Positions 45,014 through 55,251 of a DNA stretch of 64,000 bases are shown in pieces. The translations under genes were made by a program, and so were the position numbers. The stretch covers positions 1-64,000 of the forward strand of contig JACQWO010000027.1 of NCBI GenBank assembly GCA_016209225.1, given 5' to 3'. The DNA comes from Desulfobacterales bacterium (lineage in GTDB: Bacteria > Desulfobacterota > UBA8473). The notes under the pieces were generated by a model that had not been told where the DNA came from, made no database searches, and saw only the letters and a list, made by a program, of their open reading frames with translations. The stretch's first letter is position 1. Each line of letters starts with the position of its first letter.

Positions 45014-45700
45014 CTATAGACGTCTTTCGCCGGTGGCCAATTCTAAAAGCCCATTACGGTCCAGTATCTGGATACGACGAGGCCCGTCCAAACAGATGAG
45101 TTCCTCTTTGGCCATTCTGGCTAAGATTCGGGAAAGGGTTTCGGGGATCGTGCCTAAAAGGCTCGCCAATTGACCTTTAGAGATATCTAAGATCAGGTGA
45201 TCGTTTTCGTTTTTGTGTTCGCTGAGATAGAGAAGGTAGGTGCTAAGCCTCCCGGGTACTTCCTTCAGGGAGAGATCCTCGATCAGCATGGTGAACGTCC
45301 GCAGACGCCGTGATAATACGGCCAGCATACTCAAGGCTATAGACGGATTTTTCCTGATCAGATCAATAAATGCATCTCTGGGGAAGAAAAAGACACGGCT
45401 CTCTTCGATGGATTCTGCATGAGCCGGAAAGAGTTCGCCGGCAAAGACCGGTACTTCACCAAATGGCTCTCCCTGACCAAAAAAATGAAGAATCTGTTCC
45501 TTACCCTCTTGGGAGACTTTGAATATCTTGACCCGTCCCGAAATAACAACGTAAAGGCCATTCCCTTCATCACCCTCTGAAAATATGATTTGCCCTCGTC
45601 TGAATATCTGATCTACCACTATAGTGGTCAAGTCTTCGTGGTATTCTTTGGGGAGACCCTGAAACAGAGGAATAGCGGCTATATGATCGATTATATGCAT
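45014..45700 (-). CDS. Crp/Fnr-family regulator, probable HcpR
   Basis: 228 residues. cNMP-binding-like beta barrel at about 12-120 (FRRGQIIFSEGDEGNGLYVV, given as landmark FSEGDEGNG), a long dimer helix and a C-terminal winged helix with KGQLASLLGTIPETLSRIL (about 172-190). No Fnr-type N-terminal Cys cluster is present. It is divergent from hcp. Two perfect TTGAC-N4-GTCAA palindromes lie between the genes, matching the type of site described for HcpR, the nitrosative-stress regulator of anaerobes that often controls hcp. Assignment rests on context plus motif. Confidence 0.85.
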   Translation of the reverse strand: MHIIDHIAAIPLFQGLPKEYHEDLTTIVVDQIFRRGQIIFSEGDEGNGLYVVISGRVKIFKVSQEGKEQILHFFGQGEPFGEVPVFAGELFPAHAESIEESRVFFFPRDAFIDLIRKNPSIALSMLAVLSRRLRTFTMLIEDLSLKEVPGRLSTYLLYLSEHKNENDHLILDISKGQLASLLGTIPETLSRILARMAKEELICLDGPRRIQILDRNGLLELATGERRL

Positions 45701-45948: not shown

Positions 45949-47577
45949 ATGTTTTGTTACCAGTGTGAACAAACGGCAAAAGGTGAAGGGTGTACAATTG
46001 TGGGGGTTTGCGGAAAGCAACCGGAAGTTGCCGCCCTTCAGGATCTTCTCATCCATGCCCTCAAGGGACTCTCCCTCTACGCCGTGGAAGGACGGAAGGT
46101 AGGGGTTATCGAACAAGAGGTAAACATCTTTACATGTGAGGCACTATTTGCTACATTGACTAACGTGAATTTTGATTCGCACCGTCTTGTCCGGTTGATC
46201 CATCGCTGTGCAGAGCTGAGTGAAAAACTAAAGGAGAAGATCAGGGCAAAAGCCGGAAACGTCAATCTGCCGGATTGCCCGGTTACCTTCAGACCCGGGG
46301 CGACCGTGGAAGAGTTGGCCAAACAAGGGGAAACGGTGGGGTTGAAATCAGATATCTCCGTCGCCCCTGATATTCTCTCACTCCAGCACATATTGCTCTT
46401 TGGTATCAAGGGCATTGCCGCCTACGCAGACCATGCACAGATACTTGGACAGGAAGACGATAAAGTGTATGCCTTCATCCATGAGGGTCTCGCTGTTACA
46501 CTGAAGAAAGACCTGAGTCTCGATGATTGGGTGGGTCTGGTATTGAAATGCGGAGAGATCAACCTTAGGGCTATGGAACTTCTTGATGCGGCTAATACAG
46601 GCACTTATGGTCACCCTGTTCCTGCTCAGGTTCCCTTGGGAGCCAAAAAGGGGAAGGCCATCCTGGTCTCAGGGCACGATTTAAAGGATATGGAAGAAAT
46701 CCTCAAACAGACAGAAGGTAAGGGCATATACGTGTATACCCATGGCGAGATGCTTCCGGCCCATGGGTATCCAAATCTCAAAAAATATAGCCACCTCTAC
46801 GGCCATTACGGCACTGCATGGCAGAATCAGGCCAGGGAATTTGCCGGCTTTCCAGGGGCTATCTTAATGACTACCAATTGTATCCAGAAACCCAGGGAAC
46901 CATACATAGACAATATTTTTACCAGCGGTCAAGCAGGATGGCCTGGGGTAATCCACATCTCGGATTACAATTTTTCGCCTGTGATTGAAAAGGCTATGAG
47001 CATGCCTGGTTTTTCAGAGGATACCAACGGGCGTTCGGTCATGGTCGGCTTTGGGAGGAACGCAGTATTGGGTGTGGCAGATAAAGTAATTGAGGCAGTT
47101 AAAGCTAAGGCCATCAGCCATTTCTTCCTGGTAGCCGGATGTGACGGGGCAAAACCTGGCCGAAACTACTATACCGAGTTTGTAGAAAAGGCGCCGAAGG
47201 ATTCTATAATCCTGACCCTTGCCTGCGGTAAGTTCCGCTTTTTCGATAAAGATCTGGGCAACATTGGAGGTATCCCCAGACTCCTGGATATTGGTCAGTG
47301 CAATGATGCCTACTCGGCCGTGCAGATTGCCGTGGCTTTGGCCAACGCATTCAACGTGGGTGTAAATGAGCTGCCCCTGTCCATGATACTCTCCTGGTAT
47401 GAGCAGAAGGCTGTATCCATTTTATTGACGCTTTTACACCTGGGGATCAAAGGAATTCGTCTGGGGCCCAGTCTTCCAGCCTTTATTTCTCCCAACGTGC
47501 TGGATGTGCTGGTAAAGAACTTCGATATTAAACCTATAACTACGCCTGATGAGGATTTGAAGGCGATACTGGGATAA
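45949..47577 (+). CDS. hcp: Hybrid cluster protein (hydroxylamine reductase), class I
   Basis: 542 residues. The N-terminal cluster Cys pattern is C3-x2-C6-x8-C15-x5-C21 (MFCYQCEQTAKGEGC then IVGVC), the class I spacing of strict anaerobes, binding a [4Fe-4S] cluster. Hybrid-cluster ligands later include MTTNCIQKP near 310 and ACGKFRFF near 425. Hcp reduces NO to N2O or hydroxylamine to ammonia, i.e. nitrosative-stress defence. Ribosome site AAAGGAGGTAAGAGT. It is followed by an HD protein and two ferredoxins in the same direction, interrupted by a family A repeat. Confidence 0.97.
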   Translation: MFCYQCEQTAKGEGCTIVGVCGKQPEVAALQDLLIHALKGLSLYAVEGRKVGVIEQEVNIFTCEALFATLTNVNFDSHRLVRLIHRCAELSEKLKEKIRAKAGNVNLPDCPVTFRPGATVEELAKQGETVGLKSDISVAPDILSLQHILLFGIKGIAAYADHAQILGQEDDKVYAFIHEGLAVTLKKDLSLDDWVGLVLKCGEINLRAMELLDAANTGTYGHPVPAQVPLGAKKGKAILVSGHDLKDMEEILKQTEGKGIYVYTHGEMLPAHGYPNLKKYSHLYGHYGTAWQNQAREFAGFPGAILMTTNCIQKPREPYIDNIFTSGQAGWPGVIHISDYNFSPVIEKAMSMPGFSEDTNGRSVMVGFGRNAVLGVADKVIEAVKAKAISHFFLVAGCDGAKPGRNYYTEFVEKAPKDSIILTLACGKFRFFDKDLGNIGGIPRLLDIGQCNDAYSAVQIAVALANAFNVGVNELPLSMILSWYEQKAVSILLTLLHLGIKGIRLGPSLPAFISPNVLDVLVKNFDIKPITTPDEDLKAILG

Positions 47578-47797: not shown

Positions 47798-48529
47798 ATG
47801 AAATGTCCGGGGCAAGACACCCGTTTTTGGAAGCCAGGGACTATCTTTGAGATTGAATGTCCTAAGTGCGGCAGTACGGTGGAGTTCTTTAAGGATGAAG
47901 CCACCCGCCGTTGTGGGAAATGCGGATCAAAGCTCGTAAATCCGAAGATGGACTTTGGCTGTGCTGCACACTGCAAGTTTGCCGAGCAGTGTCTGGGGGA
48001 TTTGCCTCCAGAGCTTATAGCCCAAAGAAAGGATCTGTTAAAAGACCGCGTTGCCGTGGAGATGAAACGCTATTTCAAGGATGACTTCAAGCGGATTGGT
48101 CACGCTACCAGGGTAGCCAGATATGCAGAAGAGATATTTCGGGAAGAAGGAGGAGATCTTGCGGTAATTTTGTCTGCCGCTTATCTCCATGACATCGGGA
48201 TCAAGGAAGCTGAGCGTAAATACCAGAGCACAGCCGCTCGGTATCAGGAAGAGGAGGGACCTCCGATAGCCCGCGATATTCTTTCAAGTCTGGGAGCTAG
48301 CCAGGATCTCATCGATGAGGTATGTGATATAGTCGGCCACCACCACCATCCCAGACCTCAAGAAACGGTTAACTTTAAGATTGTTTACGACGCTGACCTG
48401 ATTGTGAACCTGGAGGAAAAGAAGAAAGAGTCTTCTGTAAAGGAAGAGAGATTGGACAAACTCACAAAGAATGCCTTTCTCACAAAAAGCGGTGAAAAAG
48501 TGGCAAAGAGAGTCCTTTTGGAGGGTTAA
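47798..48529 (+). CDS. Zinc-ribbon plus HD-domain phosphohydrolase
   Basis: 243 residues. An N-terminal zinc ribbon has ECPKCGSTVEF near 20 and CGKCGSKLV near 38, followed by a further Cys group (DFGCAAHCKFAEQC). The HD domain starts near 100: GHATRVARYAEEI, LSAAYLHDIGI (HD pair, near 130), VGHHHHPRP near 178, YDADLIVNLEE near 197. Predicted metal-dependent phosphohydrolase. HD proteins of this type follow hcp in several anaerobes (recollection), suggesting a role in redox or nitrosative response signalling; substrate unknown. Confidence 0.88.
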   Translation: MKCPGQDTRFWKPGTIFEIECPKCGSTVEFFKDEATRRCGKCGSKLVNPKMDFGCAAHCKFAEQCLGDLPPELIAQRKDLLKDRVAVEMKRYFKDDFKRIGHATRVARYAEEIFREEGGDLAVILSAAYLHDIGIKEAERKYQSTAARYQEEEGPPIARDILSSLGASQDLIDEVCDIVGHHHHPRPQETVNFKIVYDADLIVNLEEKKKESSVKEERLDKLTKNAFLTKSGEKVAKRVLLEG

Positions 48530-48653: not shown

Positions 48654-49409
48654 ATGAAAGTAAGACGTAAAATCATAGAAATAGATGAAGAAAGGTGTGA
48701 TGGCTGTGGGCAATGTGTGCCTTCCTGTGCAGAGGGGGCAATACAGATCGTGGACGGAAAGGCCAGACTATCTGCTGAGAAATACTGCGACGGGCTGGGC
48801 GCATGTCTGGGGGAGTGCCCCAACGACGCCCTCAGGATTGTGGAACGTGATGCAGACGACTTTGACGAAGAGGCTGTAGAAGTACACCTAAAATCGAAAA
48901 AAGCAGCACAAAGTTCCGGAGAGGAAACGATGGCTTGCGGGTGTCCATCAGCGCTAATTCAGAGCTTTGCCCCTGAAAAATCATGCCGGGATGCAAATGA
49001 ACCGGTTTCTCAGAGTAATAGAGTATCTGCCTTATCTCATTGGCCGGTTCAGATTAAACTGGTACCACCAACGGCTCCATTTTTAAAGGGGGCGAATATC
49101 CTGGTAGCAGCCGATTGTACACCATTTGCCTATCCCAACTTTCACCAGGATTTTATTCAGGGCAAGATTCTCATGGTGGGGTGCCCAAAGTTCGATGATG
49201 TACAGGAGTATATCCAGAGGTTTGCAGACATATTCAAGACAGCAGGAATAAAAAGCATTACGGTGGCGGTAATGGAGGTTCCATGCTGCCAGGGGCTGCC
49301 GTTAATCATCAAAAGGGGAATGGAACTGGCAGGTAAAGACATTCCTATAGACCAGGTGGTGATCAGCGCCAGAGGGGAAGTCCTCAAGAGGGAGAAATTG
49401 GTGGCATAA
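48654..49409 (+). CDS. 4Fe-4S ferredoxin-domain protein
   Basis: 251 residues. Two [4Fe-4S] motifs: CDGCGQCVPSCAEGA (about 14-28), and the variant CDGLGACLGECPNDA (about 43-57), where the second Cys is replaced by Leu, so the second cluster may be lost or altered. A linker with Cys residues (ACGCPSALIQSF) leads to a C-terminal domain (about 130-251) with LVAADCTPFAYPNFHQDF and VPCCQGLPLIIKRG. Proteins of this layout accompany hcp in anaerobes and may donate electrons to it. Start behind AAGGAGAAGCCT. Confidence 0.88.
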   Translation: MKVRRKIIEIDEERCDGCGQCVPSCAEGAIQIVDGKARLSAEKYCDGLGACLGECPNDALRIVERDADDFDEEAVEVHLKSKKAAQSSGEETMACGCPSALIQSFAPEKSCRDANEPVSQSNRVSALSHWPVQIKLVPPTAPFLKGANILVAADCTPFAYPNFHQDFIQGKILMVGCPKFDDVQEYIQRFADIFKTAGIKSITVAVMEVPCCQGLPLIIKRGMELAGKDIPIDQVVISARGEVLKREKLVA

Positions 49410-51226: not shown

Positions 51227-51847
51227 ATGAATAAGAACCCGCAAAATAACGGTATCAGTTGCCTGAGTCTTCTAGACATCTCAGACGAAGACATACTGGA
51301 GGCTATGAAGGATGTCCATGGATACCTGGATATAACTCCTGGTGATGTTAAAGAGCTCTATCGCCTAGCATATACACACGCGGTTGAACGCCTTACCCAT
51401 TTTGTAAAAGCAAGGGATGTTATGACAAAAACGGTAGTTTTTGTAAAAAGGGAGACTCCCCTGAGAGAGGTGGCAGAACTGATGACCATTCACTTTATCT
51501 CTGGTGTCCCTGTAGTTGAAAATGGAGGTAAAATCGCCGGTATTATATCCGAAAAAGACTTTCTACGTCGTATGGATGGTGAGGATACCATCTCATTTAT
51601 GAGCGTTGTAGCCCTTTGTTTAAAAAAAGGATGTGTTGCCCTATCGATGCGTGAACAGAAAGCGGAAGACATTATGACATCTCCGGTTATAACGGTAGGT
51701 GAAAATACACCAATCTCTGAAATTGCTGACATTTTTACGAAACAAAATATTAATCGGGTACCAGTCACTGATCAAAAAGATAATCTCATAGGGATTGTAT
51801 CACGAGCGGATATCATACGATCATCATTCCCAAAAATAGTGAACTAA
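51227..51847 (+). CDS. CBS-domain protein
   Basis: 206 residues. A short N-terminal helical part, then a CBS pair: ARDVMTKTVVFVKRETPL near 65 and AEDIMTSPVITVGENTP near 145, each closed by a GIISEKDFLRR / GIVSRADIIRS segment. CBS pairs bind adenosine nucleotides and regulate partners. The partner is probably the HPP membrane protein encoded seven bases downstream; HPP-CBS pairing is common. Confidence 0.92.
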   Translation: MNKNPQNNGISCLSLLDISDEDILEAMKDVHGYLDITPGDVKELYRLAYTHAVERLTHFVKARDVMTKTVVFVKRETPLREVAELMTIHFISGVPVVENGGKIAGIISEKDFLRRMDGEDTISFMSVVALCLKKGCVALSMREQKAEDIMTSPVITVGENTPISEIADIFTKQNINRVPVTDQKDNLIGIVSRADIIRSSFPKIVN

Positions 51848-51853
51848 GCCAAG

Positions 51854-52408
51854 ATGATGAAAAGCAACATTATGAACTACTTCAAAAAAATGAGAGGAAC
51901 AACGAAGAGCCCGCCATCTGTAGGTCTTTCAGAGATTATCTGGTCATGGATAGGTGCTTTTTTAGGTATTGCTGCTGTGGCGTTTATCAACTATAATATT
52001 CTTAACGATACAGATATGGTTATGATCATAGGTTCTTTTGGAGCTTCAGCCGTACTTATTTATGGTGCAATTAGGAGTCCACTGGCTCAGCCAAGGAATC
52101 TCATAGGTGGCCATATTATTTCAGCTATCATAGGAGTGGCTACCTATAAGATTCTTCATGGTCATATGTGGATTGCGGCATCTGTAGCGGTGGCAACATC
52201 AATTGTGGCTATGCATGCCACAAAGACCCTTCACCCCCCTGGTGGTGCCACCGCACTGATTGCAGTTACGGGAAGTCAGAAGATCATCAATCTTGGTTAT
52301 CTCTATGTAGTTATACCCATCGGTCTGGGTGCAGCCATTATGTTGGTCGTTGCACTTCTGGTAAACAACATACCTAAAAGCCGCAGATACCCGGAATTCT
52401 GGTTCTAA
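51854..52408 (+). CDS. HPP-family integral membrane protein
   Basis: 184 residues with four to five membrane helices. The family-naming motif is THPPGGATA-like: KTLHPPGGATALIAVTG near 120. HPP proteins have been linked to nitrite transport in chloroplasts and cyanobacteria; in this setting, next to hcp and a nitrogen-oxide cytochrome pair, nitrite transport is an attractive but unproven role. Adjacent to the CBS gene. Confidence 0.92.
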   Translation: MMKSNIMNYFKKMRGTTKSPPSVGLSEIIWSWIGAFLGIAAVAFINYNILNDTDMVMIIGSFGASAVLIYGAIRSPLAQPRNLIGGHIISAIIGVATYKILHGHMWIAASVAVATSIVAMHATKTLHPPGGATALIAVTGSQKIINLGYLYVVIPIGLGAAIMLVVALLVNNIPKSRRYPEFWF

Positions 52409-52609: not shown

Positions 52610-53229
52610 ATGGGCAAACATACAGTTGTGTTGGGGGTGTCAAGGTAGAAGTAACAACGGGGGTAAGCCTGTTGGAAGCGGCCACTAAAGCAGGTGTATA
52701 CGTCAACAGTCTATGCGGTGGCGAAGGGGTCTGCGGTAAGTGCCGTATACAGATCTCTCATGGTCTGGCACTGCCTAATGCCCGCAGCATCAGCTTCCTC
52801 AGCCGAGAAGAGATACAGAATGGTTTTTTGCTAGCCTGCCAGACCGAAATCCGAGATAACCTGGAGGTCTGGGTGCCTCCGGAGTCCCGCCTGGAGAAAG
52901 AACAGATTCTCACCACAGAAAGCATGGTTTGTTATGATGTTCCACAAGGCATCCCTCTGGGTGATTCCATGCAGCCCCCTTCGCTGCTATACATGCCCAT
53001 AACTCAGAAATTCTTCCTGTCCCTGCCAGAGCCAACCATACTGGATAACATCTCGGATTTTGATCGCATCCGGCGAGAGATTCACAAGAAGATACAAGCC
53101 TCCTACATGGAGACCTCTCTTTCTACCGCACACCGATATGAACCTGTTTCCTACAGTGAAGAATATGATGGAAAATCCAGGAAGAAAATGATATACAATA
53201 GGATGAAAACAGAAAGATACTTGACATGA
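52610..53229 (+). pseudogene. RACo/ASKHA-type protein fragment: 2Fe-2S ferredoxin domain
   Basis: The frame 52639-53229 reads VKVEVTTGVSLLEAATKAG, then SLCGGEGVCGKCRIQISHG with the 2Fe-2S Cys pattern CxxxxxCxxC, and FLLACQTEI with the fourth Cys. It continues into VPPESRLEKEQIL, the linker of corrinoid-activating RACo-like (DUF4445) proteins, and stops after about 190 residues, whereas the family has about 600. A frameshift at about 52640 separates it from the ATG at 52610 (MGKHTVVLG). A decayed remnant. Confidence 0.7.
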
Positions 53230-53305
53230 AAGAACTTCATGTGTAATAAGTACTCCCTGACGAATGCGTCCCTTAAAAACAAAATCCAGGCAAGAAGGGA
53301 CAGAC

Positions 53306-53824
53306 ATGCAAAAGACAATAAAAACAGCCACAGTCATCACTCTGACCCTTCTTGTGGCTTCTTCCCTGTTCGTTTTGATCCAGTATGCTATGGTTCGTAC
53401 CTCAACTCCCCAATTCTGCGCTACATGTCATGAAATGGAGTTTGCCTATGACACATGGAAGAGTTCGAGTCATTTCAATAACAGACATGGATTAGTAGCA
53501 GAATGTATGGATTGTCATCTTCCCCCTGTTGAGGATACCTTAAGCTTTTACCCTGCAAAGATATATCACGGCATCAAAGACCTGGTCTTACATTTTACGA
53601 ATGAAGCCTATGATCGTGAAAAAAGCCGTAAGCTTGTTTATGAAACGTTTAACAACAAGTACTGCCTGAAATGCCATAGCAACCTTCTTTATATCCCGGA
53701 CAAACGAGGGGCCATGCTGGCCCACAGGTCGTTGATTTATGCCCGTTCGGGTTATGAGAAGAAGTGTCTCGATTGCCATGAGAACCTGGTTCATAAACCG
53801 ACAGAATTCTATCTATATAAATAG
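53306..53824 (+). CDS. Tetraheme membrane cytochrome c, NapC/NrfH type
   Basis: Start chosen at 53306 (MQKTIKTATVITLT), behind AAGGGACAGAC. 172 residues: one N-terminal membrane helix (about 6-27), then four CxxCH heme sites: CATCH, CMDCH, CLKCH, CLDCH. Oxidises menaquinol and passes electrons to a periplasmic multiheme partner, here the octaheme cytochrome encoded 23 bases downstream. Confidence 0.93.
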   Translation: MQKTIKTATVITLTLLVASSLFVLIQYAMVRTSTPQFCATCHEMEFAYDTWKSSSHFNNRHGLVAECMDCHLPPVEDTLSFYPAKIYHGIKDLVLHFTNEAYDREKSRKLVYETFNNKYCLKCHSNLLYIPDKRGAMLAHRSLIYARSGYEKKCLDCHENLVHKPTEFYLYK

Positions 53825-53847
53825 CTGAGGAAAGAGAGGGTGATAAA

Positions 53848-55251
53848 ATGAGAAAGATTCTATTGTTTGTGTGCTTGGTGGTTGGAGTGGCAGGTCTTTC
53901 TGTAATAGGGTTTATGGCAGTCAATGCCCAAACATCCAAGAATGCCCCAAAGGAAAAGGAATTCAGGATAGAGAGGGGTATGTCCAAGGAGGCGGTGGCG
54001 TGTATTGAGTGCCATAAGAAGGAAAGCCCTGCCATCTTTGTGGATTGGGCACACAGCCGACATGCGAACGCCAATATTACCTGTCTTGACTGCCATAAGG
54101 CAGAATCATTCGATCCGGATGTAAGTAAGGAACACTATAAACAGTATCAGAGGTCCGATCAAGGATGGGGAACCAAGAAATATAGGGTGCCTGTTTCAGC
54201 GATTGTCACCCCCAAGGACTGTTCCCGCTGCCATCCCGACGAAGCTAAACAGTACAATCGGAGCAAGCATGCAAATACAGTTGAGATCATGTGGAAGATC
54301 GACCCCTGGCTCAATAAAGGCATGAATAGTGAGATCGAACGTGCCTCGGGTTGTTATTATTGCCATGGATCGGTCTTGAAGATTAAAGATGGCAAACTGA
54401 CCCCTGAGACCTGGCCCAATGTGGGTATAGGACGTATCAATCTGGATGGGAGCAAGGGGAGTTGTACCAGTTGTCATACCCGCCATCGCTTCTCCGTTAT
54501 GGAAGCCCGTAAGCCGGAAGCCTGCGGTCAGTGTCATCTGGGCCCTGATCATCCTCAGATGGAGATATATATGGAGTCCAAGCATGGGAACATCTACACG
54601 GCATTTGGAGACAGGTATAACTGGGATGGTGCTGCCGGCACATGGACGGCCGGTGTAGACTACCGTGGTCCCACCTGTACCTCTTGCCACATGTCAGGTT
54701 CCGGTTCGGTTTTGACTACCCATGATGTTAGCGAGAGACTTTCCTGGGAGCTCCAGGCACCTCTTACAGTCCGTCCAGAGGAATTCAAGGCATTCCCGGC
54801 CAAAACCAACTGGCAGGTGGAGAGGAACAAGATGAAAGAGGTTTGCCTGAAGTGCCATGGTAAGACGTGGGTAGATGATCATTACATTAAGCTGGATAGG
54901 GTCATTCAAGAATACAACGAGGTATATTTCAAGCCCGCAAAAAAAATGTTGGATGACCTCTATACCAAGGGTCTTCTGGATAAGAGCAAAAACTTTGATG
55001 AAAAATTAGAGGTTGAATTTTACGAATTGTGGCACCATGAAGGACGCAGAGCCCGAATGGGTGCGGCGATGATGGCTCCGGATTATACCTGGTGGCATGG
55101 TTTTTATGAATTGAAGAAGAGATATAATAACTTCATGGAAGAAGCACGGGATATGCTTAAACATAAAAGGAAGGCATATAAGGCTCTGGACTTCCCCAAT
55201 GCTACCGGCACGACCAAGAAGCCGGAAGAGATTTTACCTAAAAGGAGGTAG
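53848..55251 (+). CDS. Octaheme cytochrome c, hydroxylamine oxidoreductase (HAO) family
   Basis: 467 residues with signal peptide (MRKILLFVCLVVGVAG...). Eight CxxCH sites: CIECH, CLDCH, CSRCH, CYYCH, CTSCH, CGQCH, CTSCH, CLKCH. HAO-type blocks include SRHANANITCLDC, ESKHGNIY, and near the C-terminus PDYTWWHGFYELKKRY, the area where the cross-linking Tyr of true HAO is found. Paired with a quinol-oxidising NapC/NrfH-type cytochrome it more probably works in the reductive direction (nitrite or hydroxylamine to ammonia), as reported for epsilon-HAO of Campylobacterota. Its stop overlaps a convergent gene by 18 bases. Confidence 0.9.
   Translation: MRKILLFVCLVVGVAGLSVIGFMAVNAQTSKNAPKEKEFRIERGMSKEAVACIECHKKESPAIFVDWAHSRHANANITCLDCHKAESFDPDVSKEHYKQYQRSDQGWGTKKYRVPVSAIVTPKDCSRCHPDEAKQYNRSKHANTVEIMWKIDPWLNKGMNSEIERASGCYYCHGSVLKIKDGKLTPETWPNVGIGRINLDGSKGSCTSCHTRHRFSVMEARKPEACGQCHLGPDHPQMEIYMESKHGNIYTAFGDRYNWDGAAGTWTAGVDYRGPTCTSCHMSGSGSVLTTHDVSERLSWELQAPLTVRPEEFKAFPAKTNWQVERNKMKEVCLKCHGKTWVDDHYIKLDRVIQEYNEVYFKPAKKMLDDLYTKGLLDKSKNFDEKLEVEFYELWHHEGRRARMGAAMMAPDYTWWHGFYELKKRYNNFMEEARDMLKHKRKAYKALDFPNATGTTKKPEEILPKRR

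Follow-up and report, generated by a model that had tools for sequence, protein, structure and literature searches.

A NapC/NrfH-family cytochrome paired with an octaheme HAO-family protein in a sulfate-reducing Desulfobacterales bacterium: a probable quinol-driven nitrogen-oxide reductase

The stretch of DNA analysed here (the window, 64,000 nucleotides of a Desulfobacterales genome) encodes a NapC/NrfH-family membrane cytochrome directly followed by an HAO-family octaheme cytochrome c (OCC). We consider it probable (roughly 60%) that the pair acts in the periplasm as a reductive HAO, reducing nitrogen oxides with electrons from quinol and likely protecting sulfate reduction. This reading draws on the pairing of the two genes, the absence of the cross-linking Tyr, a retained active-site Asp-His, a place outside the oxidising enzymes, linkage to hcp, and HcpR-type sites in some relatives.

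The gene pair

The initial annotation described a tetraheme gene paired with an octaheme gene at 53306-55251, and both were found there (Table 1), with the NapC-family gene 5' and a gap of 23 bases between the two. The OCC is 467 residues long and carries CxxCH motifs at residues 52, 79, 125, 169, 206, 226, 277 and 333, whereas shuffled copies of the sequence held a mean of 0.03 and a maximum of two. Together with a Pfam match to PF13447 (Multi-haem_cyto) at 107.7 bits against a cut-off of 21.9 (E 8e-31), this bears out the eight hemes and the HAO family that had been claimed. The protein reads as secreted, with a cleavable N-terminal signal ending VNA-QT.

Table 1. Features of the window bearing on the NapC-OCC pair and the hcp group.
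Feature	Position	Strand	Basis
CRP/FNR-family regulator, HcpR1-type	45014..45700	-	recognition helix GTIPETLSR (Pro180, Glu181)
Exact HcpR-type palindrome TTGACGTAAGTCAA	45741..45754		motif match; one of five exact in genome
Exact HcpR-type palindrome TTGACTTATGTCAA	45827..45840		motif match; one of five exact in genome
hcp, hybrid cluster protein	45949..47577	+	PF03063 E 4e-173; NF003658 832.7 bits vs cut-off 367
HD-domain protein of hcp group	47798..48529	+	PF01966; recurs near relatives
4Fe-4S ferredoxin-like protein of hcp group, FrdX-like	48654..49409	+	PF00037; recurs near relatives
NapC/NrfH-family membrane tetraheme cytochrome, predicted quinol oxidase partner	53306..53824	+	PF03264, four CxxCH
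Octaheme cytochrome c, HAO family (OCC)	53848..55251	+	eight CxxCH, PF13447, profile and Foldseek matches
C-terminal block PDYTWWHG of OCC, residues 411-418	55078..55101	+	HMMER and MAFFT alignments

The NapC-family protein comprises 172 residues from its likely start, ATG 53306, which is preceded by the ribosome site AGAAGGGA; an alternative in-frame ATG at 53264 would give 186 residues. It matches PF03264 (Cytochrom_NNT, Pfam) with an E-value of 3.9e-33, contains the heme motifs CATCH, CMDCH, CLKCH and CLDCH, and reads as having a single N-terminal membrane helix. After heme 1 (CATCHEM) most relatives have Ile in place of Met, and Met ligation is therefore not conserved. Residues K85 and D92 are invariant across 22 NapC-family partners and align with K82 and D89 in the structure of Desulfovibrio NrfH (2J7A), which form its quinol site. 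The PF03264 domain and these Lys/Asp residues place the partner in the NapC/NrfH quinol dehydrogenase superfamily, while its score against the NrfH equivalog TIGR03153 (NCBIfam) was 76.6 bits, under the cut-off of 134.2.

The pairing is nearly universal in the clade of this OCC, which occurs mainly in Desulfobacterota: where a clade locus extends far enough upstream, a NapC-like gene of three to four hemes almost always ends directly before the OCC gene. The exceptions are L014 and L020, plus L062 and L063, where the OCC lies in longer frames. A search of viral contigs returned no relative.

Family placement of the octaheme protein

A profile built from 33 relatives and searched against the sequences of solved structures gave strong matches to eight, all of the HAO family. 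They included 4QO5 (E 5e-78), 6H5L (E 2e-48), the HAO of Nitrosomonas europaea (NeHAO; E 7e-43) and HDH (E 1e-26), as well as HOX (4N4J) and the Brocadia HAO-like protein 6T5E. Of these, 6H5L is the Kuenenia reducing HAO-like complex Kustc0457/0458. Foldseek with an AlphaFold2 model of the OCC (pLDDT 75, pTM 0.64, no hemes) recovered the same set, with 4QO5 first (E 2e-18) and 6H5L second (E 6e-13); judged from this model, the protein adopts the HAO fold and has Asp-His beside its open heme.

The other multiheme reductases fared poorly. OTR gave no match up to E 10 and MccA no significant one (profile E 0.23, fold E at least 1.2; 0.2-2.8 over the searches), which rules out identity with either of these solved enzymes. 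The OCC sequence contains no CxxCK, the motif that ONR has at its catalytic heme, and ONR identity is ruled out on that ground. NrfA was matched by the profile only at 1e-4, via a short heme stretch, and not significantly by Foldseek; with the lack of CxxCK, this excludes NrfA as well.

In a tree of 49 rows, whose long end branches make fine placement unsure and which holds no Campylobacterota sequence, the clade, its two sister groups and 4QO5 lie on one side of a branch with SH-aLRT support of 98. On the other side are NeHAO and 6H5L, together with six paralogs from Scalindua and a single divergent protein from Desulfobacterales. The NCBIfam model NF052343 scored 74 bits on the OCC against a cut-off of 900. 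This score, the branch and the missing cross-linking Tyr speak against membership of the catabolic (oxidising) HAO/HDH/HOX enzymes. The initial annotation had named grouping with catabolic HAO, ONR or OTR as grounds for abandoning a reductive HAO, and none of these groupings occurred. Sequence, predicted fold and tree all set the OCC apart from NeHAO and the anammox relatives of that enzyme; its nearest solved relative is the Ignicoccus octaheme cytochrome 4QO5.

The cross-linking Tyr and the active site

Alignment to N. europaea HAO around the cross-linking Tyr, the check that had been proposed, put Trp where Tyr was expected. HMMER, using the NeHAO chain of 4FAS, pairs GGWTY467TEGW with D-YTW415WHG and so sets Tyr467 against W415; the ungapped MAFFT alignment sets it against W416, in a column that holds Tyr in three Scalindua paralogs (L092, L093, L094) and Trp in 6H5L. 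The Tyr of PDYTWWHG, which had been put forward as potentially diagnostic, is Y413, two or three residues before the Tyr467 equivalent, and is rejected as the cross-linking Tyr because both alignments have Trp at that place. The cross-linking Tyr is absent in the OCC and in every clade member read. A second Tyr of NeHAO is also missing (Tyr334, here Q303). Asp267 and His268 of NeHAO are kept as D234 and H235, and this Asp-His beside the open heme is near-invariant, being present in 89 of 92 alignment rows.

According to published work, the cross-linking Tyr separates oxidising from reducing enzymes (PMC2628731; PMC8940962; PMC12758564). Because this residue is absent, the OCC is by that rule most likely of the reductive type. 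The key site in reductive enzymes has been reported as His (PMC12758564). Position 415 is His in one sister group (PDYTHWHG), and H417 hardly varies; the reported site may be one column off from the alignment used here, and no choice of column gives Tyr. Y413 could lie one helical turn from W416, and an unusual Tyr link is conceivable.

Linkage to hcp and HcpR

The initial annotation noted the closeness of the pair to hcp, CBS-HPP and ferredoxin genes, and all of these do lie upstream in the window. Of these neighbours, hcp and its HD and ferredoxin proteins are the only ones found repeatedly beside relatives; CBS-HPP recurs near an OCC in one locus only and is discounted as a conserved part of the system. 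The regulator beside hcp was numbered by comparison with CRP, and its Pro180 fits the delta-proteobacterial HcpR1 type, which has Ser or Pro at position 180 and the consensus wyTTGACnnnnGTCAArw (Rodionov et al., PMC1274295). Both exact palindromes sit between the regulator gene and hcp. The genome holds five exact sites and four of the reversed control pattern, so their placing is notable and their count is not enriched. Upstream of the window's own NapC gene, a search allowing up to two mismatches found no HcpR-type site, and a direct HcpR site on this promoter was discarded.

Across the relatives, 14 of 67 clade loci have hcp in their flanks, where 0.3-0.7 would be expected, and an exact TTGACN4GTCAA occurs in five of 53 NapC promoters (0.38 expected). 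A scan for exact palindromes over 80 loci (947 kb) found 18 sites, 14 or 15 of them directly upstream of hcp, hcpR or an OCC operon. These precede hcp in L004, L015, L021, L022, L039, L056 and L066, and NapC-OCC in L009, L011, L034, L054, L056 and probably L048; at hcpR they occur in L066 and in L054, where one site is shared between divergent hcpR and napC genes. Three sites had no gene assignment (L005, a second in L011, and L043). In a replication set of 17 new loci there were no HcpR-type sites within 350 bp of NapC, and one lay 1.7 kb upstream in L103. Neither the Desulfovibrio-type motif TGTGAN6TCACA nor the HcpR2 motif GTAACN4GTTAC was found upstream of NapC. These sites indicate HcpR control of NapC-OCC in a minority of relatives, a conclusion that we do not extend to the window's pair. 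Our literature search found no paper linking HcpR to HAO-family genes, though such papers may exist.

Two further features lie between the hcp group and napC. At 51227-52408 a CBS-domain protein adjoins a TM_HPP membrane protein, and the two recur near an OCC in just one other species, Desulfatibacillum alkenivorans (L024). In plastids and cyanobacteria, HPP proteins have been linked to nitrite transport, and by analogy a link of the CBS-HPP pair to nitrite is possible. Between HPP and napC, at 52610-53229, is an apparent remnant of a RACo/AcsV-type 2Fe-2S protein; its ATG at 52610 is out of frame with the ferredoxin domain, and about 200 of some 630 residues are left.

Host genome and distribution of NrfA

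The host assembly is 98.5% complete and contains one OCC and three hcp genes, with no profile match to NrfA. It encodes dsrA with an adjacent DsrB-like match, which marks the host as an anaerobic sulfate reducer. Of its five molybdopterin genes, three were scanned with NCBIfam models and none came near the cut-off for NapA or NarG; these resemble PhsA, FdhA/NuoG and NuoG/HoxU, respectively. A molybdopterin oxidoreductase (L084; G000:C79:2897-4174) has one in-frame TGA in a 912-residue frame and is probably a selenocysteine formate dehydrogenase.

Two species of the same genus lack both OCC and NrfA and keep hcp. The NapC-OCC pair was therefore gained or lost within the genus, and hcp and OCC are not tied to one another. 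In a phylum survey of 247 genomes, 52 had NrfA and 22 the core clade, and NrfA was found in none of the 22 (4.6 expected, P 0.004). Counted by genus, the avoidance gave P 0.23; with divergent clade members included, NrfA occurred in three of 26 genomes (P 0.16), since three of the four genomes that carry divergent members encode it. All of these P values are optimistic because the genomes are related.

Proposed function and alternatives

From these observations we infer the electron source, substrate, product and role of the pair. The membrane-anchored NapC-family protein would oxidise menaquinol at its conserved Lys/Asp site, and the electrons would travel through its four hemes to the secreted OCC. 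At open heme 4, beside Asp234-His235, the OCC would make ammonium from nitrite, and probably also from NO and hydroxylamine; hydroxylamine may itself be a product. NO or hydroxylamine entering the cell would be dealt with by cytoplasmic Hcp and its ferredoxin, with Hcp under the NO-responding regulator HcpR. The system would thereby shield sulfate reduction from nitrite and NO, as NrfHA protects Desulfovibrio against both, and detoxification is the likely role in view of the genome's dsrAB, its lack of NrfA and the absence of a clear nitrate reductase.

A reductive HAO with a quinol-oxidising partner, as first annotated, is thus the best-supported reading, given Trp at the Tyr place and a position outside catabolic HAO, ONR and OTR; nitrite or hydroxylamine as its substrate is the conjectural part. 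Three results favour nitrogen: hcp in the flanks, the HcpR-type palindromes, and the non-overlap with NrfA. Against it count the lack of an HcpR site at the pair's own NapC gene and in the second set of loci, the weak NrfA effect by genus, hcp without OCC in the same genus and, given no clear nitrate reductase, no known internal source of nitrite.

HAO clades I and II are described as functionally unknown apart from a Campylobacterota lineage, and sulfur has been suggested for a Desulfobacterota group (PMC9213671). A quinol-driven reductase of sulfite, thiosulfate or polysulfide, the function put forward for HAO clade I in vent Desulfobacterota, would suit a clade commonest in sulfur-metabolising bacteria, a wider fold family in which MccA and OTR act on sulfur compounds (PMC9213671), and a host genome with no clear nitrate reductase. 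We regard it as unlikely, since the hcp linkage, the HcpR-type sites before several NapC-OCC operons and the absence of overlap between core clade and NrfA all point to nitrogen, and the searches set the OCC apart from MccA and OTR. Slightly less likely again is a protein serving mainly as an electron conduit, or as reductase of another acceptor (metal or extracellular), with nitrogen chemistry incidental. For most members of clades I and II no function is known (PMC9213671), and a few relatives, e.g., L031, have another multiheme gene near the OCC, but the near-invariant Asp-His suggests catalysis, and the hcp and HcpR linkage argues against a mere conduit. An oxidising HAO that converts hydroxylamine to NO and feeds quinone through the NapC-family protein is very improbable: family, octaheme core and Asp-His are common to NeHAO and the nitrifier cM552 is likewise NapC-like (PMC3701875), but both Tyr residues are missing, the tree sets the OCC apart from the oxidising enzymes, and the host is an anaerobic sulfate reducer.

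Comparison with known systems

The closest functional precedent for the proposed nitrogen-oxide reductase is the reverse-HURM pathway of Nautilia (PMC3701875) and some Campylobacter, in which HaoA and a NapC-like cM552 act with Hcp. Both systems have an HAO-family octaheme protein without the cross-linking Tyr, a NapC/NrfH-family partner, hcp in the genome and no NrfA; here, in contrast, napC and OCC are adjacent, the host is a sulfate reducer and there is no clear Nap nitrate reductase. The pair would work by analogy like that of Nautilia, a likeness drawn from its parts, the tree being without Campylobacterota sequences. NrfHA likewise sets a NapC/NrfH-type quinol oxidase beside a periplasmic multiheme reductase, probably for the same job, although the OCC is octaheme where NrfA is pentaheme, has no CxxCK, occurs in a genome with no NrfA profile match, and has a partner under the NrfH equivalog cut-off.

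Among HAO-family proteins, Kustc0457/0458 (6H5L) shares Trp at the Tyr467 place, Asp-His and the fold, but is only about 21% identical and lies across the well-supported branch. The Ignicoccus hospitalis cytochrome 4QO5 is the best solved match by both sequence and fold, yet it is archaeal, 24% identical over the fold alignment and on a long tree branch, and it retains the Asp in a changed Asp-His block (DPDVPAF versus GPDHPQ). NeHAO shares the octaheme fold and Asp-His and differs in its Tyr467 and Tyr334 and in its branch.

Variant relatives

Several relatives depart from the usual arrangement. In the second sister group, the OCC follows genes for a tetraheme protein, an Fe-S protein and an NrfD-type membrane protein (L066:4808-9281); this operon has an exact HcpR-type palindrome upstream (L066:4808) with hcpR and hcp nearby, and similar gene sets occur in some of L070, L074, L076 and L078. 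In another sister group (L067, L072, L077 and L079, from Aminicenantes, Nitrospinota and others), no NapC precedes the OCC, and downstream lies a membrane protein of roughly 500 residues with five CxxCH and an NrfH-like part. Divergent clade members occupy open frames of 730-760 residues (L063:6999-9239, and G045, G102, G201 and G221), and in L063 the octaheme part comes after one additional N-terminal CxxCH and a membrane region; in G102, a true nrfA adjoins an OCC copy that is interrupted by an internal stop. A subclade (L018, L019, L025, L032, L036, L038) differs in its C-terminal block, AMAGPDYAWWHGAYDMKPKF, and lacks hcp in its flanks; its function may have drifted. Two loci, L045:3772-6876 and L117 (G050), carry two octaheme-type genes in tandem, and at L059:3056-4306, about 3.7 kb before the clade OCC, there is a second, very divergent eight-heme protein of 416 residues with DYSTWYG in its C-terminal block.

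Significance

HAO-family proteins outside the nitrifier/anammox branch are commonest in Desulfobacterota, where their function is described as unknown and both nitrogen and sulfur have been proposed (PMC9213671; PMC12758564). The pairing of the two genes, their linkage to hcp and the HcpR-type sites make a nitrogen function a specific and cheaply testable question, and such genes in metagenomes should not be counted as nitrification genes. More tentatively, at somewhat under even odds, the NapC-coupled clade may widely take the place of NrfHA in sulfate reducers and related bacteria, in part under HcpR control, and carry much of the ammonification or nitrite/NO detoxification of anoxic sediments. 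If that is true, the enzyme behind such activity is one now annotated as a hydroxylamine oxidoreductase or left without a function.
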